From: a virus
Virus record (IMG/VR): IMGVR_UViG_3300027631_000020
Location: 1 to 59,999 of that record
Direction: 5' to 3' (one strand)
DNA length: 59,999 nucleotides
How positions within the stretch are numbered: position 1 is the first letter of the stretch; each line of letters starts with the position of its first letter. The position numbers and the translations under genes were made by a program. The notes beneath the pieces were generated by a model, which was given only the letters and a program-made list of their open reading frames with translations, was not told where the DNA came from and ran no database searches. This document shows, piece by piece, positions 9 through 54,173 of this stretch.

Positions 9-16
9 TATTTATT
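9..16 (+). promoter_or_regulatory. Late-type box TATTTATT upstream of the adhesin gene
   Basis: The box ends 6 nt before the ATG at 23 and is followed by an A-rich leader. It is one of thirteen similar boxes at gene or operon starts in this window. Its role as promoter or translation signal is inferred. Confidence 0.5.
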
Positions 17-22
17 AATAAC

Positions 23-3000
23 ATGAATAGTCAAAATATACTAAAATTTTGGGGTTCCAAATTTAATTTGAAACTCGATACATCGGAATTTCACGATTAT
101 GAGTTAGGGAAAACAGACACGGATTACAATTCCGACGTTTTAGACTTGACTACACCCATCGTTTATTCCACTTTGAAAATAAATACTACGGGTCTTAGGG
201 GAACTTCATGTTCTCGAGACAGAATCACTATTGTCGAGTACGATAATAGAGGTAATGACCCAACATATCCATATTCCGCCTATACATGGACCCTTCCATA
301 TTCTGACTTCACTAATCGTTTGGGTAATTCTGACACTATTCTACATAATGACGTTTATAAATTTGTAGATGTCAGTGGTTTTACCCATTATTTTAGAACA
401 TATAGTTATAATTTACCACTTAATAACCCATTTTCGTTAAATGTCACAGGATTAACTGTCAGTACACCAATTGCGTGTATTCCAAGATTGTGGGATGAAG
501 ACCACTGTTGTACATTAGATTCACCATCAAACGCAAAACCATGGGCGTACCAAACCAATCATGGTGCGGGTAGTGGAAATGATTGTAATCCGGCAATTCA
601 AAGAAGAACCGAAAAGGGTTGGACTTTAGATTTTGTATTCAACAGAGAGGATTTACCTTGGTCAGTTGGTAAAGTGTTTTATTATTTGGGTACAAGAGGA
701 AATAGTGATATTTCCGATTATGCGGACAATAATCTTTCATTTTCTTTTACGTCGGATAGAAGAATACAGTGGAGAGCGGTTCATTATTCGGGAGTTTGTT
801 TGGATAATGGTGACTTTAATGAAAGTTACTATGTTGCATCGGGACAAACACCACAACTTTGTATTGATGGAACATCTGAAGATTTTGAAATTACAATAAC
901 TTTTGATAGATATAGACATTTAACCGAATGTAACATTGAAAACGATGGTGGGTTTAATGACTTAATTCCTGAATTTATTATTAATGATTATGTTCCAAAT
1001 ACGGGGGTGACTGCGGTAACATCGACTCAAGTAGTTTCACATAACGAATCTGAGATTTTAAATAAAAAATGGGCTGACGAGAGAAATAGACGATTAGGTG
1101 TTTTGACAATCTATCTAAATGGTAGACCCGTTTATAAAATAAGAAATTGGGAGGAGGTGATTCCTTCAAAAAGGGGTGCTCAACCTTTCATTCAATCGTG
1201 GGGTGCCGGAACTGAATATTCAGGTGGAATCCACAATATGGGTATTTCATGTTTTAACTTTAAGAGAGTACAATACTATGAAGAACCTCTTGATTTTGTT
1301 CACGTTAGACACCATTATTTGGTTGACGTTAAACCATATTATAATATTATTGAATGTGTTGGGGATTGTCCTGATGAGGTAATGGGATTGGGTTATTTAT
1401 CCCCAACCCCCACACCGACTTCTACACCAACACCTACGTTAAGTACCACACCAACCCCAACTATTACACCTACACCAACGGTTGGACCCATTGTGTTAAC
1501 ATTTAGTGGAACAATCAGTAGTGGTTCAATTGTTTGTCATTACGATGCAACTATCGATAGGGTAATTACCAATGATATTACTTTAACAACCACTAACACT
1601 TTAAAATTAAACGACGAAAGTATTTTAGAAATACCTATTTCTATTACAATATATGCTGGTGATTTTATAGGTCAATACACTCAAACATTACCTGAAAATT
1701 TCGGTGATTTGAATAAAACATTCTTTGAGTACACCCCATTGGTGATTAATACTGATAGTACCGAACAATTTAACGATAACGTTTCATTAGCATTAATTTT
1801 TTCGGAGATAACACCAACCCCTACACCAACACCAACAGTAACTCCTTATATACCCGAAAATGATTTTATTTATAATATTATTCCGAATGGAGATTTTATC
1901 TATTCATTAATACCAAATAGTGATTTAACATATACCTTAATTCCTTCAGGTGATTTCTCATCAACGTTTATTCCAAATAACGACGTAACCTATGTTACAT
2001 TACCTGACAATGATACACTCTACTCAATTATACCAAACAATGACTCAACATACACATTAATACCAAATAATGATATTGAATACAATGTATTGAAACCGGG
2101 TAATTCATTCTATGGTGAAATAAAATTAGGTGAGAGTGATATTGAGGGGACTTGTAATTGTCCTGAATGGGAATGTCCAAGATTTTACGTAACGGGAGAC
2201 GGTCCAACGTTCTGTGATTCAAATATTTTTGTAACAAATGGAGATGGATTTAATTTAAATGGATGGGGAACTATTGTTCATAATGGTTTTTATAAAACCG
2301 TTAATATGGATGGTAGTAATATCGCAACATATAGAACTGATTGTGGGGTTTGTCCAATAACTCCAACACCAACACCAACGGTGACACCAACCCCCACGGA
2401 AACACCAACACTAACCCCTACGGAAACACCAACACCAACTCCTACGGAAACAATAGTACCATATAATAAAATTGTTGACCTTAACATAAACAGTTTATCT
2501 TCATATTCAGGAAGTGGAACAACGGTTACGGACATTTTGGGTAATACAACTGCAAGTATATTTGGTTCACCATCATATCAAAATGATGGATGTACATCAT
2601 CAATAGTATTGAATGGTACTGACCAGTACGTTATAACCGACACTTCAATTGCATCATTTTATGATTCTACAGACACGTCTTTATTCCTTTGGGTTTATTT
2701 AACAGATAATGGAGTGATATTGAGTGAACAAGGTGGCGGTGGTTTAAACTTTGGTTGGCACGATTCACAAATTGAATTAGTTAGTGGAACATTGAAGTTT
2801 AGTGTTTGGCCATATGGTAGTACAATAACATCATCAATATCAACACCTCTTAATAATTGGTATTATATTGGGTTTATATACAACAATACAACTTTGACCG
2901 CATATGTGAATGGTCAAAGTGCTGGTTCTGTAAATGTTACAAGACAGGTACCTTATGATAGTGGTAATGGTTTATATTACGCAATAGGCGCATCAGATAC

Positions 3001-4846: not shown

Positions 4847-4854
4847 TATTTATA
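4847..4854 (+). promoter_or_regulatory. Late-type box TATTTATA upstream of the 700-aa virion gene
   Basis: Exact TATTTATA, 22 nt before the ATG at 4877, in a 72-nt intergenic gap that otherwise holds only A-rich sequence. Its role is inferred from recurrence. Confidence 0.55.
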
Positions 4855-7697: not shown

Positions 7698-10595
7698 ATG
7701 GCAGAAGTAATTTCTCAAGAAACCATCGAGGGTTTCTTAAATGGTTGGGACCCCGAAGAATTCATAGTAGGGGTTGAGTATGACTACAGAACCAACAAAA
7801 TCTACAAAATCATTCAAGACCCTGAAAAGGGTAAAGTCATTAAAGAGGACACAATCGTCCCCTTTCTTTGGGTCGGAGACCTAACGGGATTCAATTTCTA
7901 TCAAAACAGTAAGGCACTCCAAAAGAAAAAAATGGGGGAATACGGTATTTTGATTGAAAAATTGGAGACCCATGGTAATGAGCGTCTTGAACTTGGTATG
8001 ACTCACTTGGTTAAGTGTATGAAAGGATACACCGAGTTAATCAACTTCTTTAAACAAGGTGGTATTGACCCATGGGGTGAAAAAACAAAACAGTTATTTA
8101 CCATTTTAAATCCCTCAGAACAATACCTAATTCAAAAGAAAAAAAGATTATTTAAAGGTATTGAAGAATATAGTGGTGTTCATCGTTTTGTATTTGATAT
8201 TGAAACCACAGGTTTAGACCCCGAAACGTGTAACATCATTTTGATTGGGGTTAAGGATAATCGTGGTACAAACGAAACAATATCTGCATTTGGGGATGAC
8301 GGTGAAAAAAAATGTATAGAGAGATTCTTCAATATTATTAAAGAATTAAAACCAACAATCATTAGTGGTTATAACTCCGCATTCTTTGACTGGCCATTTA
8401 TTTTAAAACGAGCGGAAATCTTGGGTGTTGATGTCAGTAGTTTAACTCAAATCTTTACAAAACAAGGTATTAAAGAAAAAAAGGGCATGTTGAAACTTGC
8501 CAATGAACAAGAAGACTACATCCAACATGTTATTTGGGGATTTAATATAATTGATATTGCACACTCTGTTCGTAGAGCACAGGCAATTAACAGTGAAATC
8601 AAATCTTGGGGTTTGAAGTATATCACCAAGTATTTGGAAAAGGAAAAGGAAAATCGTATCTACGTTGATGGTGCCAAAATATCTAAAATTTATTTAGATA
8701 ATGAAAGTTATTATGTTAACCCAAAAACAGGTGGTTACAAACAAATTGGTGAATCGGGAACCGATGGTTTATTAGAAAGATATCCTGGTAAGTTTGAAAT
8801 ATGGACGGGTAGAAAAGTTATTGAACAATACCTTGACGATGACTTGTATGAAACAATGGTTGTTGATGATTCATTTAGTCAATCTACGTTTCTACTTTCT
8901 AAAGTCGTACCCACAACATATGAGAGAATCGCAACGATGGGTACCGCAACATTATGGAAAATTATCATGTTAGCGTGGTCATATGAAAATAATTTGGCAA
9001 TTCCCGCAAAAGATGAAAGACGACCAATCACGGGAGGTTTATCGAGGTTATTGAACGTGGGTTACGCTAAAAACATCGTTAAGTTTGACTACTCTTCACT
9101 CTACCCTTCAATTCAATTAGTGTATGATGTATTCCCTGATTGCGATGTTATGGGTGTACAGAAATCGATGTTAAAGTATTTCCGTAACATTCGTATAAAA
9201 TATAAACACCTTGCCGGTGATTTAAAATCGAGTGACCCCGTTGCATCTGAGATGTACGACCGTAAACAATTACCAATTAAGATTTTTATTAACGCATATT
9301 TTGGTTCATTATCCGCACCACACGTATTTCCATGGGGAGATATGAATATGGGTGAGACAATCACATGTGTGGGTAGACAATGTCTTCGTATGATGATTAT
9401 GTTCTTTATGAAGAAGGGATATAAACCACTTGTAATGGATACAGACGGTGTAAACTTTGAAACACCCGAGAATATCAACGACACCATTTACGTAGGTAAA
9501 GGATTAAACGAATTGGTTGTGGGAGGTAAAGAATATATTGGTATCGAGGCGGACACCGCCGAATTCAACGATATCTTTATGAGAAATGAAATGGGTCTTG
9601 ACATTGATTACGTTGCACCTGCGTGTGTTAACGTATCGAGAAAGAACTACATCATCAAATTGAATAAGAAAGGTAAAGAGGTAATTAAATTAACGGGTAA
9701 CACCATTAAATCTAAAAAGTTATCACAATATGTTGTTGATTTTTTAGATGAGGGTTTAAAATATCTTTTAGAAGGTAATGGATTGTTATTTATTGAACTT
9801 TATTACAAATACGTTGGAATGATTTATAATCAGGAAATTCCTTTGGCTAAAATTGCAAATAAAGCTCGTGTAAAACAAAGTCTTGCCGATTATAAAAAAC
9901 ACATTCAAAAAACAACCAAATCGGGGTCACTTATGTCTCGTCAGGCCCATATGGAGTTAATACTTCAAAGTGATTATTCTGCGGGTCTTGGAGAAACCAT
10001 TTATTACATTAATAACGGATTTAAGAAATCAGATGGGGATGTCCAACGAGTTACTAAGGCGACTAAGAAACAACAGGAGGATTATTTGGAAAAACACGGA
10101 ACAACAATTCCTGACAATTACATTCAAATCAATTGTTATATGATTCCCGAAAAAGACATTGTGGATAATCCCGACTTGACCGGTGAATATAACATTGCTC
10201 GTTACCTAACCAATTTTAATAAACGAGTGGAACCTTTATTGGTCGCATTTAACCCTTCAATCAGAGAAGACATCTTAATTGAAAATCCGAACGATAGACA
10301 ATACTTTACACAAACTCAATGTGAACTTGTTAGTGGATTTCCATTAAAAGAAGACGGACAAGATAAGTTCGAAGAAGTTATGACACTATCAGATGGTGAG
10401 GTTATATTTTGGAATAGAGTACAACGTGACCCATTCTTTATGTACGTAGATAGTAGTCTCGAATTGGTTGACCAATATTGGGTTGAGCACAACAGAAAAG
10501 TTGTAAAGTTACAAGCCGCAAGTATTAAAAGTAATGAAGATGAAATTATTGAAACGAATGGTATTGATTATGCGTACCATGCGATTGATATTTAA
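7698..10595 (+). CDS. Family B DNA polymerase (965 aa), T4 gp43-like
   Basis: Replicative DNA polymerase with proofreading. The 3'-5' exonuclease Exo I motif is FDIETTGLD, with D167 and E169. Polymerase motif A is FDYSSLYPSIQ (D464), motif B is KIFINAYFGS, and motif C is MDTDGVNF (D581, D583). Both catalytic aspartates of motif C are kept, but the usual DTDS is DTDG. The length is close to T4 gp43 (898 residues), and no intein or split is seen. The gene has a host-like promoter element and a leader hairpin, which fits early expression. Its stop codon touches the stop of the convergent gene (TAA then TTA at 10593-10598), so no intergenic DNA separates them. It lies apart from the replication cluster at 35.6-43.9 kb. 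Confidence 0.96.
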   Translation: MAEVISQETIEGFLNGWDPEEFIVGVEYDYRTNKIYKIIQDPEKGKVIKEDTIVPFLWVGDLTGFNFYQNSKALQKKKMGEYGILIEKLETHGNERLELGMTHLVKCMKGYTELINFFKQGGIDPWGEKTKQLFTILNPSEQYLIQKKKRLFKGIEEYSGVHRFVFDIETTGLDPETCNIILIGVKDNRGTNETISAFGDDGEKKCIERFFNIIKELKPTIISGYNSAFFDWPFILKRAEILGVDVSSLTQIFTKQGIKEKKGMLKLANEQEDYIQHVIWGFNIIDIAHSVRRAQAINSEIKSWGLKYITKYLEKEKENRIYVDGAKISKIYLDNESYYVNPKTGGYKQIGESGTDGLLERYPGKFEIWTGRKVIEQYLDDDLYETMVVDDSFSQSTFLLSKVVPTTYERIATMGTATLWKIIMLAWSYENNLAIPAKDERRPITGGLSRLLNVGYAKNIVKFDYSSLYPSIQLVYDVFPDCDVMGVQKSMLKYFRNIRIKYKHLAGDLKSSDPVASEMYDRKQLPIKIFINAYFGSLSAPHVFPWGDMNMGETITCVGRQCLRMMIMFFMKKGYKPLVMDTDGVNFETPENINDTIYVGKGLNELVVGGKEYIGIEADTAEFNDIFMRNEMGLDIDYVAPACVNVSRKNYIIKLNKKGKEVIKLTGNTIKSKKLSQYVVDFLDEGLKYLLEGNGLLFIELYYKYVGMIYNQEIPLAKIANKARVKQSLADYKKHIQKTTKSGSLMSRQAHMELILQSDYSAGLGETIYYINNGFKKSDGDVQRVTKATKKQQEDYLEKHGTTIPDNYIQINCYMIPEKDIVDNPDLTGEYNIARYLTNFNKRVEPLLVAFNPSIREDILIENPNDRQYFTQTQCELVSGFPLKEDGQDKFEEVMTLSDGEVIFWNRVQRDPFFMYVDSSLELVDQYWVEHNRKVVKLQAASIKSNEDEIIETNGIDYAYHAIDI

Positions 10596-11714: not shown

Positions 11715-11717
11715 ATT

Positions 11718-11747
11718 TTGTTTTCTTTATAAATATTCGTATATTTG
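11718..11747 (+). promoter_or_regulatory. Host-type promoter TTG-N19-TATATTTG for the nuclease-like gene
   Basis: TTG (11718-11720) and TATATTTG (11740-11747) are separated by 19 nt, matching the Bacteroidota TTG / TAnnTTTG consensus. Transcription would begin near 11753, close to the TTG start at 11767. The spacer contains the late-type box of the opposite strand. Confidence 0.6.
11728..11735 (-). promoter_or_regulatory. Late-type box (TATTTATA on the minus strand)
   Basis: The plus strand reads TATAAATA, so the sense strand of the minus gene reads TATTTATA, 13 nt before its ATG at 11714. It shows that the box keeps a fixed orientation relative to the gene. Confidence 0.55.
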
Positions 11748-11766
11748 AGTTATTAATTGAAATGTT

Positions 11767-14729: not shown

Positions 14730-14737
14730 TATTTATT
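14730..14737 (+). promoter_or_regulatory. Late-type box TATTTATT
   Basis: Only 4 nt separate it from the ATG at 14742. It lies in a 50-nt gap between divergent genes and supports the ATG start over the upstream TTG at 14736, which would lie inside the box. Confidence 0.5.
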
Positions 14738-16668: not shown

Positions 16669-16676
16669 GATAAATA
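16669..16676 (-). promoter_or_regulatory. Late-type box variant (TATTTATC on the minus strand)
   Basis: Three bases before the ATG of the 52-aa gene. It differs from the main box in the last base only; support is weaker than for the exact copies. Confidence 0.35.
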
Positions 16677-16743
16677 ATGATAAAAAAGGATTTTTTATTA
16701 TCCTTAAATGGAAAAGTCTCGAAATCTTTGCTAAAAACAAAGA

Positions 16744-16751
16744 TATTTATA
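16744..16751 (+). promoter_or_regulatory. Late-type box TATTTATA upstream of the sheath gene
   Basis: Exact copy, 37 nt before the ATG at 16789. The leader between is A-rich with no Shine-Dalgarno sequence. Confidence 0.55.
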
Positions 16752-19660: not shown

Positions 19661-19928
19661 TATGTTTCACATGGAACTAAAAAATATAAAAATAAAATTA
19701 TTATAAATTACCCAGTATTATAGCTAGTATACTAGTTCTAGTATTATATTTCTAGATTTATTTATTTAATCTTTAAATCCAGTTCCAGTATTTATACTAG
19801 TATAGGGAAAAAATACGAAAAAAAAATCAAATAAAAAAGTCCAACGGTGAAATTTTTTATTTTTTCAAGATAGGCATATTTATAAGTAAGAAGAATAACC
19901 AAAAAAAAATTAAAACAAAGACATAGAC
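19661..19928. other. Non-coding region between sheath and tube genes with palindrome cluster
   Basis: No gene is evident. The stretch is very AT-rich and holds two perfect 12-bp palindromes, CTAGTATACTAG (19724-19735) and TATACTAGTATA (19793-19804). Further partial copies of CTAGTAT or CAGTATTA lie around 19712-19750. A TATTTATA copy overlaps the second palindrome (19789-19796) and the promoter-proximal copy is at 19877-19884. A regulatory or replication role is possible. Confidence 0.6.
19877..19884 (+). promoter_or_regulatory. Late-type box TATTTATA upstream of the tail tube gene
   Basis: Exact copy, 44 nt before the ATG at 19929, the longest spacing in the set; the leader is A-rich. Confidence 0.5.
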
Positions 19929-21409: not shown

Positions 21410-21417
21410 TATTTATA
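21410..21417 (+). promoter_or_regulatory. Late-type box TATTTATA upstream of the tape measure gene
   Basis: Exact copy directly after the frameshift ORF stop and only 3 nt before the ATG at 21421. Confidence 0.5.
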
Positions 21418-23339: not shown

Positions 23340-23347
23340 TATTTATA
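23340..23347 (+). promoter_or_regulatory. Late-type box TATTTATA upstream of the 1589-aa gene
   Basis: Exact copy, 13 nt before the ATG at 23361, in a 35-nt gap after the tape measure. Confidence 0.55.
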
Positions 23348-34272: not shown

Positions 34273-34280
34273 TATTTATA
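34273..34280 (+). promoter_or_regulatory. Late-type box TATTTATA before the small-protein cluster
   Basis: Exact copy, 13 nt before the ATG at 34294. Confidence 0.55.
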
Positions 34281-34497: not shown

Positions 34498-34501
34498 TAT
34501 C

Positions 34502-35149
34502 ATGAATAAATTAGAAAATCAATTACTGGAAGAAGTAGCAAGATTCAATGCTATTAATAAGTACACAAAAAAATTAATGAGTGAACAGGATGTTCCTGCT
34601 GAGGAACCGACTGGTTTTGAGGCACCGGTTGAAAGTGGTGAATTACCACCCGCACCTGAAGACACTACAACACCCGAAGCTGCACCAACAGATGCACCGG
34701 CTGAAACACCTATGGAAGGTGGAGATACAGAAGAAATCGATATTACAGATTTAGTTAATATGACTAAATCAATCAAACAAGACTTAGACGCAACTAAGGG
34801 CGAGAATGAAGGTGTCATCAGTAAAATGGATGATGTTTTTAGTAAGTTGACTGATTTAGAACAAAAACTATCTCAAATGGATGCGGTTATGAGTAAAATT
34901 GACGAACTTGGAAACAAGGTTGAGATGATGAAAGAAAAAACTCCTGAGGAAAGACTTGAACTACGTTCATTGGATTCTTATCCGTTTAACCAAAATCCAC
35001 AACAATTCTTTGCTCAAAAACAAGGAGAAATGAGACAAAGCGGTAAAAATGAATATGTTTTAACTAAACAAGATGTTGATACATACTCAAATGAAACCAT
35101 GAGAAATACATTTAATCCAGAAGAAGAAAATGACGAGTATAAATTCTAA
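34502..35149 (+). CDS. Acidic coiled-coil protein, possibly virion or prohead core (215 aa)
   Basis: A helical N-terminus (about residues 1-28) is followed by a low-complexity acidic Pro/Ala/Glu/Thr linker (about 29-78). Then comes a long coiled coil (about 80-150) with heptad-like ISKMDDVFSKLTDLEQKL and VMSKIDELGNKVEMM, and a C-terminus rich in Gln and Asn. No enzyme motif is visible. Such linker-plus-coil proteins often serve as internal scaffold or virion assembly factors; this is inferred from shape only. It overlaps the next gene by 20 bp. Confidence 0.65.
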   Translation: MNKLENQLLEEVARFNAINKYTKKLMSEQDVPAEEPTGFEAPVESGELPPAPEDTTTPEAAPTDAPAETPMEGGDTEEIDITDLVNMTKSIKQDLDATKGENEGVISKMDDVFSKLTDLEQKLSQMDAVMSKIDELGNKVEMMKEKTPEERLELRSLDSYPFNQNPQQFFAQKQGEMRQSGKNEYVLTKQDVDTYSNETMRNTFNPEEENDEYKF

Positions 35150-35504
35150 CATAAACCTTTTTTTAGGTTTACAAGCTCAATTAAGAATATTCCATTGGCA
35201 GACAAAGGGTTATGCAAGACACAACGCATTTGGTGTTACATATGATACATTAGAAGATTTAATTGATACCTTTGTTGAAGAGGCAATGGGAAAATACGGT
35301 AGATTTGTTTTAGATGATGAAACCAATGTAATTCAATTAACGAATTTAAAAGAACTTAAACCTGAAGCGATGTTAGATACAGTAATCTTGGCATTAAATC
35401 AATTTTCAGAACAATTTGAAGAAACCGACACTAATCTCTTAAATGTGAGAGATGAGATGTTAGGGGCCATCAATAAATTAAAATATTTACTAACATTAGA
35501 ATAA
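35130..35504 (+). CDS. Dps/ferritin-like small protein, DUF5856-type (124 aa)
   Basis: The motif LRIFHWQTKGYARHNAFG followed by YDTLEDLIDTFVEEAMG resembles the helix pair of ferritin-like Dps proteins and the phage family often labelled DUF5856. In Dps, histidine and acidic residues in these positions bind iron at the dimer interface; here H22, H31, D39, E42 and D46 are candidates. A second helical pair follows (LDTVILALNQFSEQFEE). It is shorter than bacterial Dps (about 160 residues). Encoded in a late-type unit it could be a virion or DNA-associated protein; iron binding is unproven. Confidence 0.6.
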   Translation: MTSINSNINLFLGLQAQLRIFHWQTKGYARHNAFGVTYDTLEDLIDTFVEEAMGKYGRFVLDDETNVIQLTNLKELKPEAMLDTVILALNQFSEQFEETDTNLLNVRDEMLGAINKLKYLLTLE

Positions 35505-35541: not shown

Positions 35542-35570
35542 AAGTCGGATTTGGTAATTCGACTTTTTTT
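35542..35570 (+). terminator. Terminator hairpin before the SSB gene
   Basis: Nine-bp stem AAGTCGGAT/ATTCGACTT with one G-T pair (35542-35550 with 35557-35565), six-base loop, then a T-run. It ends the late small-protein unit, and its loop also contains the TTG of the next promoter. Confidence 0.75.
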
Positions 35571-35581
35571 ATCTATATTTC
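35551..35581 (+). promoter_or_regulatory. Host-type promoter TTG-N20-TATATTTC for the SSB gene
   Basis: TTG (35551-35553) and TATATTTC (35574-35581) are 20 nt apart; the latter differs from TAnnTTTG in the last base. It overlaps the terminator hairpin. The gene starts 27 nt downstream at 35609. Confidence 0.5.
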
Positions 35582-35608: not shown

Positions 35609-36457
35609 ATGTCAACATTCGATTCAGTACTGGCTCAGTACAGCAAGAACGCCGCGAGCGGCAACCAAAACAGAGTGTCTCAAGAAGACCGATTAAAAAG
35701 ATACTTTACTACCCTGTTACCGAAAGGTGCTAGAAGTGGTGAAAAAAGAATCCGTATCATCCCAACAAAAGACGGAAGTTCTCCATTCGTGGAAAAATAC
35801 TTCCATGAAGTTCAAGTGGATGGAAATTGGGTGAAATTGTATGACCCAAAACAAGAAGGTCAACGTTCCCCGTTAAATGAAGTTTATGATGCCTTGATGA
35901 TGACAGGTTTAGAATCTGACAAGGTTCTTGCTCGTCAATACAGAGCACGTAAATTTTACATCGTTAAAGTGATTGATAGAGAAAACGAACAGGATGGAGT
36001 TAAATTCTGGCGTTTTAAACACAATAGTAAACAAGAAGGAATTCTTGACAAAATCTTCCCTTTATTTAAAAACAAAGGTGATATTACCGACCCTAACACG
36101 GGACGTGATTTGATTATCACTCTTGGATTAAGTAAAGCCGGTAATGGTAGAGAATACACAACAATTAGTTCAATTATGTATGAGGACGCATCTCCACTAC
36201 ATAGTGATGAAACAACTTCACAAAGTTGGATTAGTGATGAGTTAACTTGGAATGATGTCTATTCTAAGAAACCTGAAGAATATTTGGAAATGATTGCCCG
36301 AGGCGAAGTTCCAAAATGGGATTCAGAAGGAAAAAAATGGATATCTAATTTACAAGAGGAAACTCAATTTATGTCACCATCAGTTGCAGCAACAGTTGCA
36401 GAACCAATCTACGATGCACAAGTAGATTCTGAATCAGACGACGATTTACCGTTCTAA
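35609..36457 (+). CDS. Single-stranded DNA-binding protein, gp32-like (282 aa)
   Basis: Coats ssDNA in replication and recombination. The core with KRIRIIPTKDGSSPFVEKYFHEV, KFWRFKHNSKQEGILDKIF and the OB-fold strands fits T4 gp32, and the acidic C-terminus ends in ESDDDLPF, the protein-interaction tip typical of phage and bacterial SSBs. No CxxC-type zinc motif like that in T4 gp32 was found. The first gene of the replication module, it follows a terminator and host-type promoter and is followed by a strong terminator, so its level may be set separately. Confidence 0.88.
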   Translation: MSTFDSVLAQYSKNAASGNQNRVSQEDRLKRYFTTLLPKGARSGEKRIRIIPTKDGSSPFVEKYFHEVQVDGNWVKLYDPKQEGQRSPLNEVYDALMMTGLESDKVLARQYRARKFYIVKVIDRENEQDGVKFWRFKHNSKQEGILDKIFPLFKNKGDITDPNTGRDLIITLGLSKAGNGREYTTISSIMYEDASPLHSDETTSQSWISDELTWNDVYSKKPEEYLEMIARGEVPKWDSEGKKWISNLQEETQFMSPSVAATVAEPIYDAQVDSESDDDLPF

Positions 36458-36470
36458 TTTACCCCCACAT

Positions 36471-36514
36471 GGACATTCTCAGGGACAAACTGTCCCCGAG
36501 GGTGTCCTTTTTTT
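36471..36514 (+). terminator. Strong terminator after the SSB gene
   Basis: Seventeen-position stem (36471-36487 with 36491-36507, loop AAC) with 16 pairs including two G-T pairs and one mismatch, then seven T residues. It is the strongest hairpin noted and is GC-rich relative to its surroundings. Confidence 0.9.
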
Positions 36515-36537
36515 AAAAAAAAACTTATATTAATAAC

Positions 36538-37560
36538 ATGGCAATAAAGAAACAAGATTTTTCGAGTGTTATCTCGAAGTATTCCAGCAAAATGACCTAC
36601 AAACCTGATAGGTTCTTAGACCTTGGTGACGCATTCTTAGACGCAACCGGTATTCCCGGACCTGCACTCGGACACATCAACATGTTCTTAGGACACTCAG
36701 ATACAGGTAAAACTACCGCATTATTAGCTGCGGCTGCTGATGCAATTAAAAAGGATATATTACCTGTCTTTATTATCACTGAACAAAAATTTGCGTTTGA
36801 ACATGCCGACATTATGGGAATTCCCGTAACTGAAGACGTTGACCAATCAACAGGTGAAATTACATACTCAGGTCAATTCATTTTTAGAAATGATTTTGAA
36901 TATATCGAACAAATTACAGATTTCATCAATGAATTATTGGATGCACAAGAAAAAGGTACAATCCCTTATGATTTGTTATTCCTTTGGGATTCTGTTGGTT
37001 CTGTTCCATGTAAAATGACTTTCGAAGGTAAAGGTGGTAAACAACATAATGCAGCAACCTTGGCCGATAAAATCGGTATGGGTATCAACCAACGTATTTC
37101 AGGTTCAAGAAGAGCAGATAAAAAACATACAAACACACTTATCGTTGTTAATCAACCATGGGTTGAATTACCTGATAATCCTTTTGGACAACCAAAAATT
37201 AAGGCTAAAGGTGGAGAATCACTATGGTTAAATTCAACATTAGTGTTTTTATTTGGAAATCAAAAAAATGCTGGTACTACTAAAATCGATATTACGAGAA
37301 AAGGTAGAAAGGCAAACATTGGTAGTAGAAGTAAAATTTCAGTGATGAAAAATCACGTAAATGGTATTTCATTCGCTGATGGTAAAATCATGGTAACCTC
37401 ACATGGTTTCATGAAAATGAGAGACACCGTAGAAGAAAAGAAATCGAGAGAAGATTACTTAAAGACAAATCTTGAGTATATTGGGTCGAGACTATTTGGT
37501 GAAAAAATCACAGATACATCTGGTATCGAATTCGAAGTCGGAGAAGAAGACGAGAATTAA
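36538..37560 (+). CDS. uvsX: UvsX/RecA-type recombinase (340 aa)
   Basis: Strand-exchange ATPase of the RecA/UvsX family. Walker A is GHSDTGKTT (residues 52-60), and LLFLWDSVGS carries the Walker B aspartate. The later segment LIVVNQPWVELPDN and the C-terminal region fit UvsX. Length is close to T4 UvsX (391) though somewhat shorter. It follows the SSB gene, its functional partner in recombination-dependent replication, after a terminator; the upstream element CTTATATTAATAAC directly before the ATG is not a clear promoter of either class. High confidence in family; the symbol is by homology to T4. Confidence 0.9.
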   Translation: MAIKKQDFSSVISKYSSKMTYKPDRFLDLGDAFLDATGIPGPALGHINMFLGHSDTGKTTALLAAAADAIKKDILPVFIITEQKFAFEHADIMGIPVTEDVDQSTGEITYSGQFIFRNDFEYIEQITDFINELLDAQEKGTIPYDLLFLWDSVGSVPCKMTFEGKGGKQHNAATLADKIGMGINQRISGSRRADKKHTNTLIVVNQPWVELPDNPFGQPKIKAKGGESLWLNSTLVFLFGNQKNAGTTKIDITRKGRKANIGSRSKISVMKNHVNGISFADGKIMVTSHGFMKMRDTVEEKKSREDYLKTNLEYIGSRLFGEKITDTSGIEFEVGEEDEN

Positions 37561-37599
37561 TTTTATTTTATTGTTTAACTATTAAACTACAAAGACTAA

Positions 37600-38622
37600 A
37601 TGTCTAATGTTTTATTGGTCGATGGGGACAATTTGTTGACCATTGGTTTTTTCGGACTTAAAAATCATTTCTATAAAGGGAACCACATAGGTGCATTGTA
37701 CCATTTTGTGAACACTTTACGTAGAACCATCGAGATACATCATTTAGATAAAATAGTTGTCTTTTGGGATGGTAAAGAAGGTTCGTCATCTCGAAAGAGA
37801 TACTACCCTCAATACAAGGAAAATAGAAAAAGTAGAATAAGAACTGAAGAGGAATTAACAGCGTATAGTCAACAAAGAAATCGAGTAAAACAATACTTGG
37901 AAGAATTGTTTGTCCGTCAAGATGAATACGAATACTGTGAAACCGATGATGCAATTGCGTACTACTCTCAAAACTCACCAAAAGAAAATATCATTATATT
38001 TTCATCGGACGGAGATTTAACTCAGTTAGTTTCAGAAAACACACGTTTATTCAATCCTTCACATAGTAAAATGTATCAACCAAAAGATATGTTTGTTTAT
38101 GACCACGAAGAGATAAGAATAGAAAACATCAAATTAGTAAAGATGTTATGTGGGGACCCATCTGACAATATCGCGGGAATTAAAAACTTAGGTGTTAGAA
38201 GATTATTAGGGGCGGTTCCCGAATTAAAAACAGAAGAACTTACATTAGAATTCATTAGGAGTCGTTTTGACGACTTATTCGAAGAAGATAGAGATAATCG
38301 TATAGTTACCAACTTACTTACGGGAGTGACGAAGTATGGGGTACTGGGAGAGGAGTTCTTCGATGTTAATAGTCGAATTGTAAGTTTGGATGACCCTTTC
38401 CTAACTGATGAGGCCAAAGAATCTATTGAATCACTTATTAATGATAAAATGGACCCCGAAGGTCGTTCGTATAAAAACACAATGAAAATGATGATGGAGG
38501 ATGGTATTTTCCTCCTTTTACCTAAATCAGACGATGCGTGGATTAATTTCTTGAATCCATTTCTTCGATTAACAAGAAAAGAAAAAAATAAAAAAATAAT
38601 AAAAATAAGAAACAATGACTAA
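37600..38622 (+). CDS. 5'-3' exonuclease / RNase H of the FEN family (340 aa)
   Basis: Removes RNA primers or flaps at the replication fork, as T4 RNase H does. Visible signature residues: VDGDNLL (D8, D10), the FWDGKEGSSSRKRYY clamp and arch segment, CETDDAIAYYSQ, SSDGDLTQLV and the helix-hairpin-helix CGDPSDNIAGIKNLG. Both acidic metal clusters are present. Length is close to T4 RNase H (305). It lies between UvsX and a small protein overlapping its end by eight bases. Confidence 0.88.
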   Translation: MSNVLLVDGDNLLTIGFFGLKNHFYKGNHIGALYHFVNTLRRTIEIHHLDKIVVFWDGKEGSSSRKRYYPQYKENRKSRIRTEEELTAYSQQRNRVKQYLEELFVRQDEYEYCETDDAIAYYSQNSPKENIIIFSSDGDLTQLVSENTRLFNPSHSKMYQPKDMFVYDHEEIRIENIKLVKMLCGDPSDNIAGIKNLGVRRLLGAVPELKTEELTLEFIRSRFDDLFEEDRDNRIVTNLLTGVTKYGVLGEEFFDVNSRIVSLDDPFLTDEAKESIESLINDKMDPEGRSYKNTMKMMMEDGIFLLLPKSDDAWINFLNPFLRLTRKEKNKKIIKIRNND

Positions 38623-39058
38623 TCAAGATGTAACTAAATTTGAGTTCCTTTTAACCCTTGAAGGGAACATTATTTGCCAACGTTTTTTTAACGTGAGAGA
38701 GCATAACCCACAATCAAGACGTTCGATGGATTTACACGACTACGTAAAAGAAATTTCAGATGAAATTTTTGATGATTTAAAAATAAAAACTTCCGAGTAT
38801 CTATATGAGAATCGAGAATATTTTTACGGTTTGAGTAATGTAGACACCAGTGAAAACGATGGAAAAGAACATTTTCTACTTGAAATTAAGATGGGTGACG
38901 ATGTATTTATTTCTAGAGTGTTTCCCGCATATTATTTTCACCCAAAAGTGAGATATACGGTAGACATTCGTCCACATTTAAAAAGATACCTATCATATCT
39001 AACCGATATTTTATGTTCTGATGAATTGGAAACAACATATTTAAATTACCAACTGTAA
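38615..39058 (+). CDS. Hypothetical replication-module protein (147 aa)
   Basis: I do not recognise a family. It has a beta-alpha start (TKFEFLLTLEGNIICQRFFN), several acidic and aromatic segments and a beta-rich middle (HFLLEIKMGDDVFISRVFPA). It overlaps the nuclease gene by eight bases and precedes the helicase, so it is likely cotranscribed with the replisome. A role as helicase loader or accessory factor (the gp59 slot of T4) is conceivable by position only. Confidence 0.7.
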   Translation: MTNQDVTKFEFLLTLEGNIICQRFFNVREHNPQSRRSMDLHDYVKEISDEIFDDLKIKTSEYLYENREYFYGLSNVDTSENDGKEHFLLEIKMGDDVFISRVFPAYYFHPKVRYTVDIRPHLKRYLSYLTDILCSDELETTYLNYQL

Positions 39059-39081
39059 AAATAAAAACATAACTTTGTAAC

Positions 39082-40455
39082 ATGGCAGAAAAGAACTTTG
39101 GACTTCTCGGAACATCATTCCAACAAGCATTAATAAAAGCGATAATTGAGGATAAGAAATACGGGGAAACAATTATCGATGTAATCGAGAGCAAGTACTT
39201 TGATAATAACTCGTTTAGATTTATAACTCAACATATTAAGGAACTTTACAAAAAATACGGTAAGATTCCCAACTATGATGGGTTATGTCAAAAGATTATA
39301 CTTGAATTAGGGTCGCAAGAAAGTTCAAGAATACACTTGGACACTATTGAGGCCATAAAAGATAAAGAAGATACCGAACAAATGGTTAAGGATGAGGCTT
39401 TGAATTTTTGTAAACAACAAAACCTTAGAAAAGAACTAAAAAAAGTGACAACCATTATTGATAATGGGGCATTTCACGAGTATCAAACAATTGAGGATAT
39501 TATTCAAAAGGCTCTACAAGTGGGTATTCCACCTGAAGAATGTATGGATGTGTTCCACGATATCGACGCGGTATTGGAAAAAGACAATAGACAGGCAATT
39601 CCTACGGGGATTAATGGTTTGGACAATATGTTAAAGGGAGGTATAGGAAGAGGTGAATTAGGTATTGTATTAGCACCGACAGGTACTGGTAAAACTACTT
39701 TATTAACTAAATTCTCTAACACCGCATATAATTGTGACTTTAACGTACTTCAAATCTTTTTTGAAGATAATCCTTCAAACATTAAAAGAAAACACTTCAC
39801 AATATGGACAGGTATTGAACCTGATGAGCAACCTCAAAGAAAAGAGGAAGTTAAGAGTATTGTGGAAGAAATTCAGGGTAGATGTAAAGGTTCACTTAGT
39901 ATTATCAAACTACCAAGTGATTCAGTAACAATCTCTGAAATCAAATCAAGAATTAGAAAACAAATTTCAGACGGAAAACCAATTGACATGCTAGTTATTG
40001 ACTATGTCGATTGTATCAGTCCTGAAAGGTCTAATTTTGGTGAGGAATGGAAAGGTGAAGGTTCCGTTATGAGAAGTCTTGAGGCAATGACAACTGAGTT
40101 TAATATTGCGATATGGACTGCAACTCAAGGTAATAGAGGTTCAATTTCATCTGAAGTTGTAACTACAGACCAAATGGGTGGTTCCATTAAGAAGGCACAA
40201 ATTGGTCATATAGTTTTATCTGTTGGTAAGACATTAGAACAAAAAGAACACAATTTGGCGACTATGACCTTACTTAAATCACGTGTTGGTCAAGATGGTG
40301 TGATTTGGAATAACTGTAAGTTTGATAATAGATTTATTATCATAGATACAGAAACTCAAACAACCTTACTTGGACACCAAGAACAAACGGTAAAATCAAA
40401 TGTCAACCGAGCAGCAGAAATGTTCAAACACAGACAAGAAACATTAAATCGTTAA
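39082..40455 (+). CDS. Replicative DNA helicase, DnaB/gp41-like (457 aa)
   Basis: Unwinds DNA at the fork as a hexamer. The N-terminal domain precedes GLDNMLKGGIGRGELGIVL, Walker A PTGTGKTT (199-206), and MLVIDYVD Walker B (D307/D310), followed by the motif with QMGGSIKKAQIGHIVLSV and the arginine-finger region TLLKSRVGQDG. Length fits T4 gp41 (475). A TAnnTTTG-like TAACTTTG (39070-39077) lies just before the ATG and could be a promoter. Located directly before the ribonucleotide reductase genes. Confidence 0.92.
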   Translation: MAEKNFGLLGTSFQQALIKAIIEDKKYGETIIDVIESKYFDNNSFRFITQHIKELYKKYGKIPNYDGLCQKIILELGSQESSRIHLDTIEAIKDKEDTEQMVKDEALNFCKQQNLRKELKKVTTIIDNGAFHEYQTIEDIIQKALQVGIPPEECMDVFHDIDAVLEKDNRQAIPTGINGLDNMLKGGIGRGELGIVLAPTGTGKTTLLTKFSNTAYNCDFNVLQIFFEDNPSNIKRKHFTIWTGIEPDEQPQRKEEVKSIVEEIQGRCKGSLSIIKLPSDSVTISEIKSRIRKQISDGKPIDMLVIDYVDCISPERSNFGEEWKGEGSVMRSLEAMTTEFNIAIWTATQGNRGSISSEVVTTDQMGGSIKKAQIGHIVLSVGKTLEQKEHNLATMTLLKSRVGQDGVIWNNCKFDNRFIIIDTETQTTLLGHQEQTVKSNVNRAAEMFKHRQETLNR

Positions 40456-40474
40456 TTAGCAAAAATTTTATACT

Positions 40475-41452
40475 ATGATTGAAAAAATTCTTAAAGAGAA
40501 TACAGGCCGTTTTGTCGTTTTTCCTATCGAACATCACGATATTTGGAAACAATATAAACAACAAGAAACATGTTTTTGGACGGCAGAAGAAATTGACTTA
40601 GCCCAAGACATTAATGATTGGGATAACAAACTAAATTCAGATGAACAACATTTTGTTAAGAATGTTTTGGCGTTCTTTGCTGCATCCGATGGTATCGTAA
40701 ATGAAAACCTAGGGATTAATTTTATGAATGAGGTACAGTATACCGAAGCAAAAATGTTCTATGGATTTCAAATTATGATGGAGAACATCCACAGTGAAAC
40801 ATATTCATTGTTGATTGACACTTACATTAAAGATAAGGAAGAACAAAATAGACTATTCAATGCAATTGATACGGTACCGGCAATTAAGAAAAAGGCGGAT
40901 TGGGCAATCAAATGGATTAACTCTGATTCTTTTGTTGAGAGATTAATTGCGTTTGCTGCGGTTGAAGGTATCTTCTTTAGTGGTTCGTTCTGTTCTATAT
41001 TTTGGTTAAAGAAACGTGGTTTAATGCCGGGTTTAACTTTTTCAAATGAACTTATTTCTCGTGATGAGGGAATGCATTGTGACTTCGCTTGTCATTTATA
41101 TAACCACCACATTGAAAAGAAATTATCAGATAAAAAAATCAAAGAGATAATCTGCGGAGCGTTAGAAATTGAAAAAGAATTTATTTTAGAGGCGTTACCT
41201 GTACGATTAATTGGTATGAATTCTGATTTAATGAAACAATACCTTGAGTTTGTGGCTGATAGATTATTAATGTCATTAGGTGTTAATAAAGTATACAACT
41301 CAACAAACCCATTTGATTTTATGGAGAACATCGCCATCCAAGGTAAAACCAATTTCTTTGAAAAAAGAGTTGCAGAATACCAAAAGGCAGGGGTAAATAA
41401 CAATTCGTCTATAGAAGACCTAAATACGAATTTTGACGATATAGATTTCTAA
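40475..41452 (+). CDS. nrdB: Ribonucleotide reductase class Ia small subunit, NrdB (325 aa)
   Basis: Provides the tyrosyl radical for dNTP synthesis. Iron ligands fall in the expected spacing: D72, E103, H106, and downstream ligands in the region [14 protein letters not shown] through [16 protein letters not shown]. The radical tyrosine is Y110 in [11 protein letters not shown], a sequence that reads like eukaryotic and large-phage R2 proteins. C-terminus ends FDDIDF, the tail that docks on NrdA. Just upstream of nrdA with a 15-nt gap. High confidence. Confidence 0.94.
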
Positions 41453-41467
41453 ATAACAAAATAAACG

Positions 41468-43903
41468 ATGAAAGTAAAAAAGAGAGATGGCTCCTTAGAG
41501 GAGATGAGATATGACAAAATAACAAGGAGAATACAACATTTTTGTGATGATTTGGATATTGAATTTATTGACCCAACATTAGTTACCTTAAAAGTAACAC
41601 AGGGTATCTATGACGGTATTTCAACTGTGGAGTTGGATACATTAGCGGCGGAAACTGCAGCATCGTTAGTAACCTCACATCCCGATTATGCAAAATTAGC
41701 TGGAAGACTTTCGGTTTCTAATTTGCATAAAACAACACCTAAGAAATTCTCTCAGTGTATTAAGGAATTACATAATTTCATTGAACCTAAAACAAACAAG
41801 GAATCCTCTTTGATTGATGATAGTGTTGCTAAATTTGTACAACAAAACAAAGAAGTTTTAGATGGTGCAATTACTCAAGAACGAGATTTTGATTTTGATT
41901 ATTTTGGGTTTAAAACATTAGAACGTTCTTATTTGTTGAAAATCAACAATCGTATTGTTGAAAGACCACAATATATGTACATGAGAGTTGCCGTTGGTAT
42001 TTGTAATGGTGATTTAGAAATGGCATTAAGAATATATGAAGACCTTTCATTGCATTTCTATACCCACGCAACACCTACATTATTTAATGCGGGAACACGT
42101 AGACCACAAATGTCGTCTTGTTTCTTAATTGGTAATAAAGGTGATGATATTGATGGGTTGTTTGATACAATAAAAGATGTTGCTAAGATTTCTAAATGGG
42201 CTGGGGGTATTGGTCTTCACGTTCACGATGTAAGAGCAAAAGGTTCATACATTAGAGGAACAGGTGGAGAATCAGATGGATTACTTCCTATGATGAAAAC
42301 ATACAATGAGGTTGCTCGTTGGATTAATCAAGGTGGTAAAAGAAAAGGTTCTTTTGCTGTTTATCTTGAACCATGGCATGCTGACGTTTTTGAATTTATC
42401 GATTTAAGAAAGAATCATGGTAAGGAAGAAATGAGGGCTCGTGATTTATTTTTGGCAATGTGGACTCCTGATTTATTTATGAAACGAGTTGAGGAAGATG
42501 GTGATTGGTCATTATTTTCACCCGATGAGGCACCTGGTTTATCAGACGTATACGATGACCCATTTGAATCTACTCAAAACTTCACTGAATTATACGAGAG
42601 ATACGAAAAAGAAGGAAGAGCAAGAAAAGTTGTTAAGGCAAGAAAGTTAATGGATGCCATTTTAACTTCTCAGATTGAAACTGGAACACCTTATATGTTA
42701 TATAAAGATTCGGCCAATTATAAATCAAATCAAAAGAATTTAGGTACAATTAAATCATCAAATCTTTGTACTGAGATTATCGAATATAGTTCACCAACAG
42801 AACAGGCGGTTTGTAATTTAGCATCAATCGCATTACCTAAGTACATCGTAGACGGTGAATTCAATCATAATTTATTATTTGAATACACATACCAAGTTGT
42901 AAAGAATTTAAATAATGTAATTGATTTAAATTTCTATCCAACCGATGAAACCAAACTTTCAAATATGAAACATAGACCAATTGGTTTAGGTATTCAAGGT
43001 TTGGCGGATGTATTTTGTATGTTAAATTTACCATTTGAAAGTGAAAATGCAGATATCTTACAAACTGAAATTTTTGAAACAATCTATTATGCTGCATTGA
43101 CCTCATCTAAAGATTTGGCAAAGGAAAATGGTGCATATGAAACATTTATCGATTCTCCACTATCAAAAGGTATTTTCCAATATGAGATGTGGGGTAAAAC
43201 AGATAGAGATACAAGTAAAAGATGGGATTGGAAATCTTTAAGAAAAGAAGTGGTAAAATATGGAGTAAGAAATTCTCTATTAGTTGCACCGATGCCAACC
43301 GCATCAACGGCTCAAATTTTAGGTAACAATGAGGCGTTTGAACCATTCACATCTAACCTATTCTCAAGAAGAACGTTGGGTGGTGAATTTGTTGTTGTAA
43401 ACAAACACCTTGTTAAGACATTACTTGAAAAAGGTATATGGTCTGATGATATAAAAAAGAAACTTATCATGGAAAACGGTTCAGTTCAGAATATTCCTGA
43501 AATCCCAACTGACGTTAAAGAAGTGTATAAAACGGTATGGGAAATGTCCCAAAAAAGAATACTTTTCATGGCTGCAAATCGTTCAATTTATATTGACCAA
43601 TCACAGTCTTTAAATTTATTCATTGCAAATGCGACTAAACAGAAAGTTTTGGCGGCTCACCTTTATGGATGGAAACTCGGTCTTAAAACCGGTATGTACT
43701 ATTTGAGAACCAAATCTGCGGTTGACCCACTTAAAGGGTTAGGTATAGACATGTCCACCACAAAACCAAATATTGAAACCCAAGAGGTTCCGAGTACAAA
43801 TAACTTAATCCAAGATAATTCAGAAGAAATTAAATTAACGGAGATGGTTATGAGTTCACGACCAACGGATTCACCATTTGAGTGTGAGGGGTGTGGGTCT
43901 TAA
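41468..43903 (+). CDS. nrdA: Ribonucleotide reductase class Ia large subunit, NrdA (811 aa)
   Basis: Catalyses ribonucleotide reduction. An ATP-cone lies at the N-terminus (about residues 1-95). The active-site cysteines are C218 (SSCFLIG), C434 in the NLCTE motif and C449, the last pairing with C218. The radical-transfer and C-terminal pieces include PTASTAQILGNNEAFEPFTS, and the redox pair C806-x-x-C809 ends the protein in FECEGCGS. Full length with no intein or intron. Lies downstream of nrdB, followed by a GC-rich structured segment and a terminator. High confidence. Confidence 0.96.
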   Translation: MKVKKRDGSLEEMRYDKITRRIQHFCDDLDIEFIDPTLVTLKVTQGIYDGISTVELDTLAAETAASLVTSHPDYAKLAGRLSVSNLHKTTPKKFSQCIKELHNFIEPKTNKESSLIDDSVAKFVQQNKEVLDGAITQERDFDFDYFGFKTLERSYLLKINNRIVERPQYMYMRVAVGICNGDLEMALRIYEDLSLHFYTHATPTLFNAGTRRPQMSSCFLIGNKGDDIDGLFDTIKDVAKISKWAGGIGLHVHDVRAKGSYIRGTGGESDGLLPMMKTYNEVARWINQGGKRKGSFAVYLEPWHADVFEFIDLRKNHGKEEMRARDLFLAMWTPDLFMKRVEEDGDWSLFSPDEAPGLSDVYDDPFESTQNFTELYERYEKEGRARKVVKARKLMDAILTSQIETGTPYMLYKDSANYKSNQKNLGTIKSSNLCTEIIEYSSPTEQAVCNLASIALPKYIVDGEFNHNLLFEYTYQVVKNLNNVIDLNFYPTDETKLSNMKHRPIGLGIQGLADVFCMLNLPFESENADILQTEIFETIYYAALTSSKDLAKENGAYETFIDSPLSKGIFQYEMWGKTDRDTSKRWDWKSLRKEVVKYGVRNSLLVAPMPTASTAQILGNNEAFEPFTSNLFSRRTLGGEFVVVNKHLVKTLLEKGIWSDDIKKKLIMENGSVQNIPEIPTDVKEVYKTVWEMSQKRILFMAANRSIYIDQSQSLNLFIANATKQKVLAAHLYGWKLGLKTGMYYLRTKSAVDPLKGLGIDMSTTKPNIETQEVPSTNNLIQDNSEEIKLTEMVMSSRPTDSPFECEGCGS

Positions 43904-43998: not shown

Positions 43999-44030
43999 AA
44001 TCCCAATCCTAAAAGATTGGGATTTTTTAT
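43999..44030 (+). terminator. Terminator closing the replication/nucleotide module
   Basis: Perfect 10-bp stem AATCCCAATC/GATTGGGATT (43999-44008 with 44015-44024), six-base loop, then a T-rich tail. Separates nrdA from the gp25 gene. Confidence 0.85.
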
Positions 44031-44054: not shown

Positions 44055-44062
44055 TATTTATT
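44055..44062 (+). promoter_or_regulatory. Late-type box TATTTATT upstream of the gp25 gene
   Basis: 3 nt before the ATG at 44066 and just after the terminator at 43999-44030. It argues against an upstream start at 43910. Confidence 0.5.
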
Positions 44063-46389: not shown

Positions 46390-46397
46390 TATTTATA
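46390..46397 (+). promoter_or_regulatory. Late-type box TATTTATA upstream of the 1364-aa gene
   Basis: Exact copy, 5 nt before the ATG at 46403. Confidence 0.55.
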
Positions 46398-52254: not shown

Positions 52255-52255
52255 A

Positions 52256-53053: not shown

Positions 53054-54159
53054 TGGAAAAAAACGCATATAAAATACTGAGAAAAAATATCCCCAATGTG
53101 AGATTACACTCATTATCGGGACAGTATTGGTATGATTATTTTGGTAATTGGGTACCATGGTCAGGTGATACAACCTTACCACCACAAATTGGTTATGTTG
53201 TATATAACGTAACGGGAACTGTGTCTGTTGGATATTATCGATGGTCAGGTTCAACATGGGTATCGATTTCAAAAGCGGTGGCCATGGGTAGTTATGACAT
53301 TCCGTTATTCTTAGAGAGTTCTGCGGATGAAATGGGGGTTATGGTTGGTTTCGATGGAAATATGGAACAGGTTGAACAAATCTGTAATTTTTCATATACC
53401 CAAACCGGAAACACCGTTCAAGTTTATAATACTGTAGACTCGAGTAAGGTATCTGAAATTCACGTTATTAATTTTACGGTGAATTGGGGTGACGGAACAA
53501 CCAACACGTTAACGACCCACACTGGTACGACTTTAAATTCGATTTCCAAGACTTATACCACTACAGGTGTGAAAACTATTGCAATATCAATTAACACCCC
53601 GTGGATGGACTTTAAAATGGAAAAAAAGGTAACGGTACCGGCAAACATCACAGTTGCAGACCCACTTGGTGTTTTTAGTGGTTTTACCGTACCATATACA
53701 ACAATTACGGGACAAACCCTTGATTATTTGACTGATTTAGATTACACTAATAACACGGGTAACACAATCTTCAATTACGCATCGATGGGTAAAAGTAGAA
53801 TCGACGAGAAAAAACTTTACGGTTCGAACACATATTCGGGAGTAACAACAGGAACAACATCTGGAATTGTATATAGTGCATATACCATAGATAATCTTTA
53901 TTTTAAAGATTTTGCCGATGGAGTAACAACTATTACGGGTGCGACTTCAGGTTTCACTAAGGAGGAAGTTTTTAATTTAGTTCTCACAAGGAACGAACAT
54001 TTCTTAGGTTTTATTGATGAACCAACCATTTATTCGGACATTTTTGTTGAAAGAGGAAAACAGGGGGTTATGGAAAAAACATTAAGATTATCTGAAATTG
54101 ATAACACCGGGGAAATGGAAATCTACGGAAATGGATATTTTAATATAAGAAAACAATAA
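53053..54159 (+). CDS. Virion protein with PKD-like domain (368 aa)
   Basis: About residues 139-190 form a PKD-type Ig-like domain: VNWGDGTTNT followed by SKTYTTTGVKTIAISI, the classical WGDGT...YTxxG pattern. The N-terminal ~75 residues have aromatic Gly-rich repeats with WYDYFGNWVPWSG and YYRWSGSTWVSIS, possibly a carbohydrate-binding module. PKD domains are common spacers in phage decorations and fibres. TAATG overlap with the previous gene implies coupling. The late-type box of the next gene follows its end. Confidence 0.7.
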   Translation: MEKNAYKILRKNIPNVRLHSLSGQYWYDYFGNWVPWSGDTTLPPQIGYVVYNVTGTVSVGYYRWSGSTWVSISKAVAMGSYDIPLFLESSADEMGVMVGFDGNMEQVEQICNFSYTQTGNTVQVYNTVDSSKVSEIHVINFTVNWGDGTTNTLTTHTGTTLNSISKTYTTTGVKTIAISINTPWMDFKMEKKVTVPANITVADPLGVFSGFTVPYTTITGQTLDYLTDLDYTNNTGNTIFNYASMGKSRIDEKKLYGSNTYSGVTTGTTSGIVYSAYTIDNLYFKDFADGVTTITGATSGFTKEEVFNLVLTRNEHFLGFIDEPTIYSDIFVERGKQGVMEKTLRLSEIDNTGEMEIYGNGYFNIRKQ

Positions 54160-54165
54160 AAATTA

Positions 54166-54173
54166 TATTTATT
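54166..54173 (+). promoter_or_regulatory. Late-type box TATTTATT upstream of the 305-aa gene
   Basis: 11 nt before the ATG at 54185, in the 25-nt gap after the PKD-domain gene. Confidence 0.5.

Follow-up and report, generated by a model that had tools for sequence, protein, structure and literature searches.

Why does one short A+T-rich word recur, in one orientation, upstream of genes in this viral DNA? It could be a late-promoter element read by a sigma factor related to gp55 of T4, a promoter read by some other sigma factor, a signal acting at the RNA level, or a product of base composition. The window analyzed here is the entire 59,999-base IMG/VR virus fragment IMGVR_UViG_3300027631_000020, which comes from a T4-related phage, probably one with a Bacteroidota host. 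It encodes virion proteins (sheath, tube, gp25- and gp6-like baseplate proteins, and an Ad2-like adaptor) and proteins of replication and metabolism (UvsX, SSB, a DnaB-like helicase, DNA polymerase, and class I ribonucleotide reductase), and its A+T content is 66%. A megablast search with the window gave zero matches among named phages; relatives in the viral collection number at least several hundred per query, and one of them, the 245-kb G2, is collinear with most of the window, mostly at 79 to 86% nucleotide identity where aligned. At the fragment end (59286 to 59999) lies a low-complexity repeat coding stretch whose minus strand is open too; it matches many repeat copies in G2.

The first-pass annotation had placed 13 boxes upstream of gene starts. 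All are present and spelled as it stated: eight TATTTATA, four TATTTATT, and one TATTTATC. They are given below with two stretches that serve as negative controls; ortholog counts refer to unique orthologous upstream regions per window gene.

9 to 16, plus strand: TATTTATT, 6 nt before ATG 23 of a 1593-aa virion-protein-like gene (phrog_8510, virion structural); 5 of 5 orthologs boxed
4847 to 4854, plus strand: TATTTATA, 22 nt before ATG 4877; 1 of 2 orthologs boxed
11728 to 11735, minus strand: TATTTATA, 13 nt before ATG 11714 of the Ad2-like head-tail adaptor gene; 23 of 23 orthologs
14730 to 14737, plus strand: TATTTATT, 4 nt before ATG 14742, leaderless geometry; 31 of 31 orthologs, spacer mostly 4
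16669 to 16676, minus strand: TATTTATC, 3 nt before ATG 16665, leaderless geometry; 25 of 29 orthologs
16744 to 16751, plus strand: TATTTATA, 37 nt before ATG 16789 of the tail sheath gene (phrog_23); 25 of 25 unique orthologs
19877 to 19884, plus strand: TATTTATA, 44 nt before ATG 19929 of the tail tube gene; 27 of 28 orthologs
21410 to 21417, plus strand: TATTTATA, 3 nt before ATG 21421 of a 634-aa gene, leaderless geometry; 5 of 5 orthologs, all with spacer 3
23340 to 23347, plus strand: TATTTATA, 13 nt before ATG 23361 of a 1589-aa gene; 18 of 20 orthologs
34273 to 34280, plus strand: TATTTATA, 13 nt before ATG 34294 of the short operon 34294 to 35504; 5 of 5 orthologs
44055 to 44062, plus strand: TATTTATT, 3 nt before ATG 44066 of the gp25-like baseplate wedge gene, leaderless geometry; 5 of 5 orthologs, all with spacer 3
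46390 to 46397, plus strand: TATTTATA, 5 nt before ATG 46403 of a 1364-aa gene; 4 of 4 orthologs
54166 to 54173, plus strand: TATTTATT, 11 nt before ATG 54185; 4 of 4 orthologs
7698 to 10595, plus strand: DNA polymerase gene (phrog_262), no box (negative control); 0 of 16 orthologous upstream regions boxed
35609 to 43903, plus strand: SSB, UvsX, exonuclease, gene 38615 (no family match), DnaB-like helicase, NrdB, and NrdA (assigned with phrogs), no box (negative control); 0 boxes among 4 to 5 orthologs per gene (7 genes)

The statement that replication genes lack the box holds for both controls, and the box is missing from the SSB, UvsX, helicase, and nrd genes of every relative examined. The boxed operon at 34294 to 35504 ends in a terminator, ahead of these genes. 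Further copies of the word occur in the window. A second TATTTATA lies at 19789, within the intergenic region before 19929; the exact copy reported inside a gene at 1867 to 1874 is real; and a TATTTATT at 44028 is formed by the T-run that belongs to a terminator hairpin (43999 to 44027) downstream of nrdA. Other terminator-like hairpins are found at 35543 to 35571, before SSB, and at 36470 to 36507, before UvsX (-26 kcal/mol).

In a genome with 66% A+T, where chance copies fall within genes, the boxes might be an artefact of AT-rich intergenic DNA. Yet their number and orientation speak against it. A count over the entire window gives 9 copies of TATTTATA on the plus and 2 on the minus strand. 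Within 60 nt upstream of 36 genes it stands in the sense orientation before 8 genes and in the antisense orientation before 1, as expected of the directional motif that had been proposed; dinucleotide shuffles predict 0.59 genes with a sense copy, and 0 of 300 reach 8. The set of spellings TATTTAT[ATC] is found before 13 genes in sense and 3 in antisense, with 1.38 expected. When no motif is supplied, TATTTAT emerges as the top-scoring 7-mer upstream of window genes (13 genes vs 2 expected), and it is also the top de novo 7-mer in G2, G10, G11, G1, G3, G12, and G4. TATTTATA ranks first among 56 words of equal base composition. In nine related contigs, its density per 10 kb of upstream sequence is 25.8 in the sense and 4.6 in the antisense orientation, whereas coding sequence has 0.27 (sense) and 0.21 (antisense); sense copies far outnumber antisense copies in each contig. 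Finally, Tenacibaculum phage PTm1, which has a contractile tail, a Bacteroidota host, and a still more AT-rich genome (GC 0.30), shows strong TATATTTG and no TATTTATA enrichment (6/6/4.7 for sense, antisense, and expected); neither gp55 nor a gp55-like gene was detected in it. The shuffle, strand, word-rank, and PTm1 controls, together with the conservation described below, refute a chance origin, which we regard as vanishingly improbable. The boxes are a genuine feature of this DNA.

Conservation follows the same lines. Upstream of boxed window genes, the box is kept in 178 of 186 unique orthologous regions, vs 11 of 151 for unboxed genes. Eight of those 11 are orthologs of gene 7240, which has no box in the window; 8 of its 12 unique orthologous upstream regions are boxed, mostly at 4 nt. 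The window gene may have lost its box recently, or the operon structure may have shifted. Among IMG/VR tail-sheath relatives (80 loci, 78 with upstream sequence), TATTTAT is present 38 to 51 nt before the sheath start in 78 of 78, and the spacers of G2 are nearly identical to those of the window. The pattern recurs in the isolated Flavobacterium phage immuto (24 sense, 6 antisense, and 2.8 expected TATTTATA) and in Mel-JY01 (13, 3, and 2.9). Contigs around immuto-type gp55-like genes have a weaker signal, 58 sense vs 20 antisense.

The box also separates classes of genes. Box-led genes of the window include the virion genes for sheath, tube, gp25, and Ad2; those of G2 include terminase, portal, and prohead protease; and those of the annotated immuto genome include terminase, portal, sheath, tube, hub, tape measure, and tail spike. 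In immuto, 9 of 25 virion or lysis genes are boxed vs 1 of 28 genes of replication or metabolism (p = 0.004). The split is spatial in G10, where the 67 genes between 150 and 180 kb have 27 TAnnTTTG and 0 TATTTAT, and the 57 genes between 0 and 90 kb have 13 TATTTAT and 0 TAnnTTTG. The claim that the box marks late-gene and operon starts is upheld for virion-gene and operon starts, at positions conserved in relatives, and the terms "late" and "promoter" are our interpretation of this pattern.

TAnnTTTG is the sigma-A element of Bacteroidota (PMC6847099, PMC9723704), and its presence in the early-type regions of these phages points to a Bacteroidota host. The full sigma-70 of the relatives, used as a query in bacterial genomes, found no relative there; the host assignment therefore rests on TAnnTTTG, on the lack of Shine-Dalgarno enrichment, and on immuto. 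In the divergent intergenic region 11715 to 11766, the leftward TATTTATA has a rightward TATATTTG (TAnnTTTG) as its neighbor, 19 nt ahead of the TTG start at 11767; a late-type and an early-type promoter may thus point away from each other in this region. Microcystis phage Mel-JY01 (L121/L375) has a cyanobacterium as its recorded host, yet TAnnTTTG is enriched before its genes, and both its sigma and its sheath belong to the type seen in Bacteroidota phages; this host record may deserve a check. Other words are strongly enriched before genes as well, namely TTCGTAT and TTTAGGTATCA in immuto and CGTATAT in both immuto and Mel-JY01, and these could be early or middle promoter elements or repeat elements.

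The alignment of 254 boxes yielded no -35 element; upstream of the box, only two flanking bases reach 0.2 bits. Box-to-ATG spacing has a floor at 3 nt (33 boxes at 3, 27 at 4, 13 at 5, 11 at 6, and one each at 1 and 2), spacers of 3 to 6 nt make up 33% of the boxes, and the range extends past 40 nt. At spacers of 3 or 4 nt the base before the ATG is a pyrimidine in 55 of 61 genes vs about 52% in unboxed genes (p = 9e-10), and in long-leader cases A peaks at 81%, 5 nt past the box. Together, the pyrimidine and the A peak suggest initiation at an A 4 to 5 nt past the box. The short spacers and the pyrimidine likewise predict leaderless mRNAs; judging from the spacers, about 30% to one third of late mRNAs would be leaderless or nearly so. 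Start codons are predicted ones, and the next possible in-frame start lies a median of 19 codons downstream. For genes 21421 and 44066, every ortholog keeps the spacer of 3, and immuto-type contigs again show a spacer-3 peak, with a pyrimidine before the ATG in 36 of 36 genes, many of them orthologs. Leaderless mRNAs make up only 5.5% in Flavobacterium psychrophilum (PMC9723704).

A palindrome, ATCTTTG-N7-CAAAGAT (16726 to 16746), adjoins the sheath box in most relatives, and AATCTTTG is kept about 13 nt upstream of this box even in the L063-type clade, which lacks the other arm. We rejected the palindrome as a part of the promoter, because the aligned boxes have no common upstream element and one clade loses it.

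Boxes so close to the ATG raise the question of whether the word acts in the mRNA, in translation initiation or mRNA processing, rather than as a promoter. One third of the boxes lie 3 to 6 nt from the ATG, in a phylum whose mRNAs have no Shine-Dalgarno sites (PMC6847099). However, the box is equally conserved at spacings from 3 to more than 40 nt, it leads operons whose internal genes lack it, and T4-type phages have a matching -10 word in the same role (PMC2988020). We rejected a translation element on the same three grounds, and we hold an RNA-level signal of any kind to be very unlikely. The sequence comparisons strongly support the promoter reading.

If the box is a late promoter, what reads it? 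A protein of 232 to 240 aa is found with a gp55 HMM and with phrog_234 (late sigma) in G1, G2, G3, G4, G11, G12, and immuto, and it is present in Mel-JY01. Its gene lies outside the window fragment and is present in close relatives; its absence from G10 is uninformative, since the whole block that holds it is missing there. The phrog_234 match has E values of 2e-5 to 2e-3 in freshwater relatives, and gp55-like protein matches stand at 3e-16 in immuto and 5e-11 in Mel-JY01. Sequence-level similarity to gp55 itself (the T4 query is a 100% match to record X01804) is marginal, with E values of about 1e-3 to 1e-5. With the freshwater-family profile A1, T4 gp55 (7d7c) was the sole PDB sigma at E < 0.01 (E = 0.001, gapless through the recognition segment), and profile A2 did not find gp55 in the PDB. 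The hhalign profile-profile probability to gp55 is 23 to 27% with the freshwater alignment and the combined one; the marine alignment by itself gives 3%. Two AlphaFold models reached pLDDT values of 66 and, with a deeper alignment, 74; for both, Foldseek ranked sigma factors at the top, with no match at E <= 0.001. The C-terminal part (LREMTSLSTKEIRISLRKYRKLY) is predicted to be helical and HTH-like, and it is absent from T4 gp55.

In the T4 gp55 pocket, Y97 holds A-12, N13 and H95 hold A-9, and T99 holds A-8 (PMC7892883). We compared the residues N13, L54, R57, F86, H95, Y97, and T99, which read positions -12, -9, and -8 (PMC7892883). In the gp55-like family, Y97 is kept in all members, F86 appears as F or Y, and H95 as Y or F (cyanophages also have F at this position); N13 and T99 are replaced in every member, with the N-terminal alignment uncertain. 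The box keeps A-12 and A-8, not A-9, where it has T. The residue and box changes would fit an altered -9 pocket, to the extent that the insecure N-terminal alignment allows. No match to the T4-type gp45 clamp families PF09116 and PF02916 was found in these phages (PF09116 hit the controls RB49 and Syn33; PF02916 missed Syn33).

The gp55-like protein was found in only 6 of 50,697 phage records searched, namely four immuto records, Mel-JY01, and LR756508, and is labelled hypothetical where annotated (KNV73_gp118 in immuto). The Mel-JY01 protein, used as a query in viral contigs, found no relative. Giant phage LR756508 (484 kb) has a clear gp55-like gene (E = 3e-55), and its member matches the gp55 HMM at 3e-5. 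The prediction that this phage would also carry the box failed, as the 297 kb examined have no TATTTATA enrichment; protein and box are thus not always together.

This last case also counts for another reader of a late promoter, such as the complete sigma-70 (276 to 287 aa) that several relatives encode or an alternative sigma of the host. Full sigma-70 genes are found in G002, G005, G007, G009, G010, and G011 (PF04542, E about 1e-19 to 1e-17), and their proteins have SigA as the best PDB match. In contrast, the complete genomes of immuto and Mel-JY01 have both the box and the gp55-like protein without any PF04542 match, and the alternative sigma motifs of F. psychrophilum (sigma-54, TAnnTTGY, and the ECF CGT box) are unlike TATTTATA (PMC9723704). 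We consider such a reader unlikely, and the gp55-like sigma is probably what reads the box. The sigma-70 gene of G2 (L095:13671-14477), close to SigA/RpoD, has TAnnTTTG boxes upstream.

Our preferred reading, to which we assign a probability of roughly 0.82, is that TATTTAT(A/T) is the -10-type late-promoter element of a large T4-related, probably Bacteroidota-infecting phage group and is read by a gp55-related sigma. The phage-encoded sigma would bring host RNA polymerase to the single box, with no need for a -35 element. Transcription would begin with an A located 4 to 5 nt beyond the box, where possible one that follows a pyrimidine, and the boxes 3 to 6 nt from the ATG, about one third, would yield leaderless or near-leaderless late mRNAs. 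Early genes would use the host sigma-A box TAnnTTTG instead. What we infer from sequence is that the box is a promoter, that it acts late, which protein reads it, and where transcription begins. More tentatively, late transcription may have been re-specified in this group: a sigma of two domains, sigma-2 and a sigma-4-like HTH that might replace gp33, would read TAT-TT-ATA, with much of the late mRNA leaderless in hosts that make few such mRNAs, and possibly without a T4-type clamp, a combination that is possible though somewhat doubtful as a whole.

This reading would provide a late-promoter code for T4-related phages of an abundant group with hardly any cultured members. It would also allow operons to be mapped without data beyond the sequence, and it would give a function to proteins annotated as hypothetical, such as KNV73_gp118 of immuto. 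In T4, the adenines A-12, A-9, and A-8 are flipped out by gp55, and a box that keeps A-12 and A-8 with T at -9 would amount to a natural experiment on how sigma -10 specificity changes. The predicted leaderless late mRNAs bear on translation start in a phylum without Shine-Dalgarno sites, and immuto with its Flavobacterium host makes the reading testable.

Compared with known systems, the closest is the T4 late promoter (TATAAATA, with gp55/gp33/gp45; PMC2988020). Both consist of one 8-bp A+T box of the -10 type, with AT-rich sequence downstream and no -35 element, and both lead virion genes; 6 of 8 sense-strand bases are identical (PMC2988020), and relatives of the window phage encode a probable gp55-related sigma. 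The first-pass annotation had called the box the reverse complement of T4 TATAAATA. This is literally true and misleading as to mechanism: on the sense strand, TAT-TT-ATA differs from TAT-AA-ATA in the two middle bases alone, the central AA of T4 being TT here, and two altered bases at -10/-9 are a more apt description of the box than a signal turned around. In the box family, sense TATAAATA is near expectation and below antisense, with TATTTATA in its place; the T4-type phages RB49 and Syn33 are the mirror image, with TATAAATA at 12/4 and 5/0 sense/antisense and TATTTATA mainly antisense. Other features set these phages apart. The probable start is 4 to 5 nt past the box, vs about 6 in T4 (box at -13 to -6); leaderless spacing occurs in one third of cases, whereas the box is at least 18 nt from the start in RB49 and Syn33; the sigma has the extra C-terminal part, predicted to be helical and HTH-like, and appears to lack N13 and T99; and no T4-type clamp was detected in box phages.

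The late promoters of cyanophages and vibriophages (NATAAATA, TATAAATA, and the Aeh1 variant at -13/-12) are alike in promoter kind and show small drift (PMC2984593, PMC2988020); the published variants keep an AAA core, whereas the box here has a TTA core. In open-licence papers, TATTTATA was not found as a phage promoter. The Bacteroidota sigma-A promoter (-33 TTTG and -7 TAnnTTTG at -12 to -5; PMC9723704, PMC6847099), which the early region of these phages also appears to use, shares the start geometry, an 8-mer followed by about 4 nt to +1; yet the box is a different word with no -33 element, and the gene sets are largely disjoint. On our reading, the box is a variant of the T4-type late promoter rather than a new kind of system.
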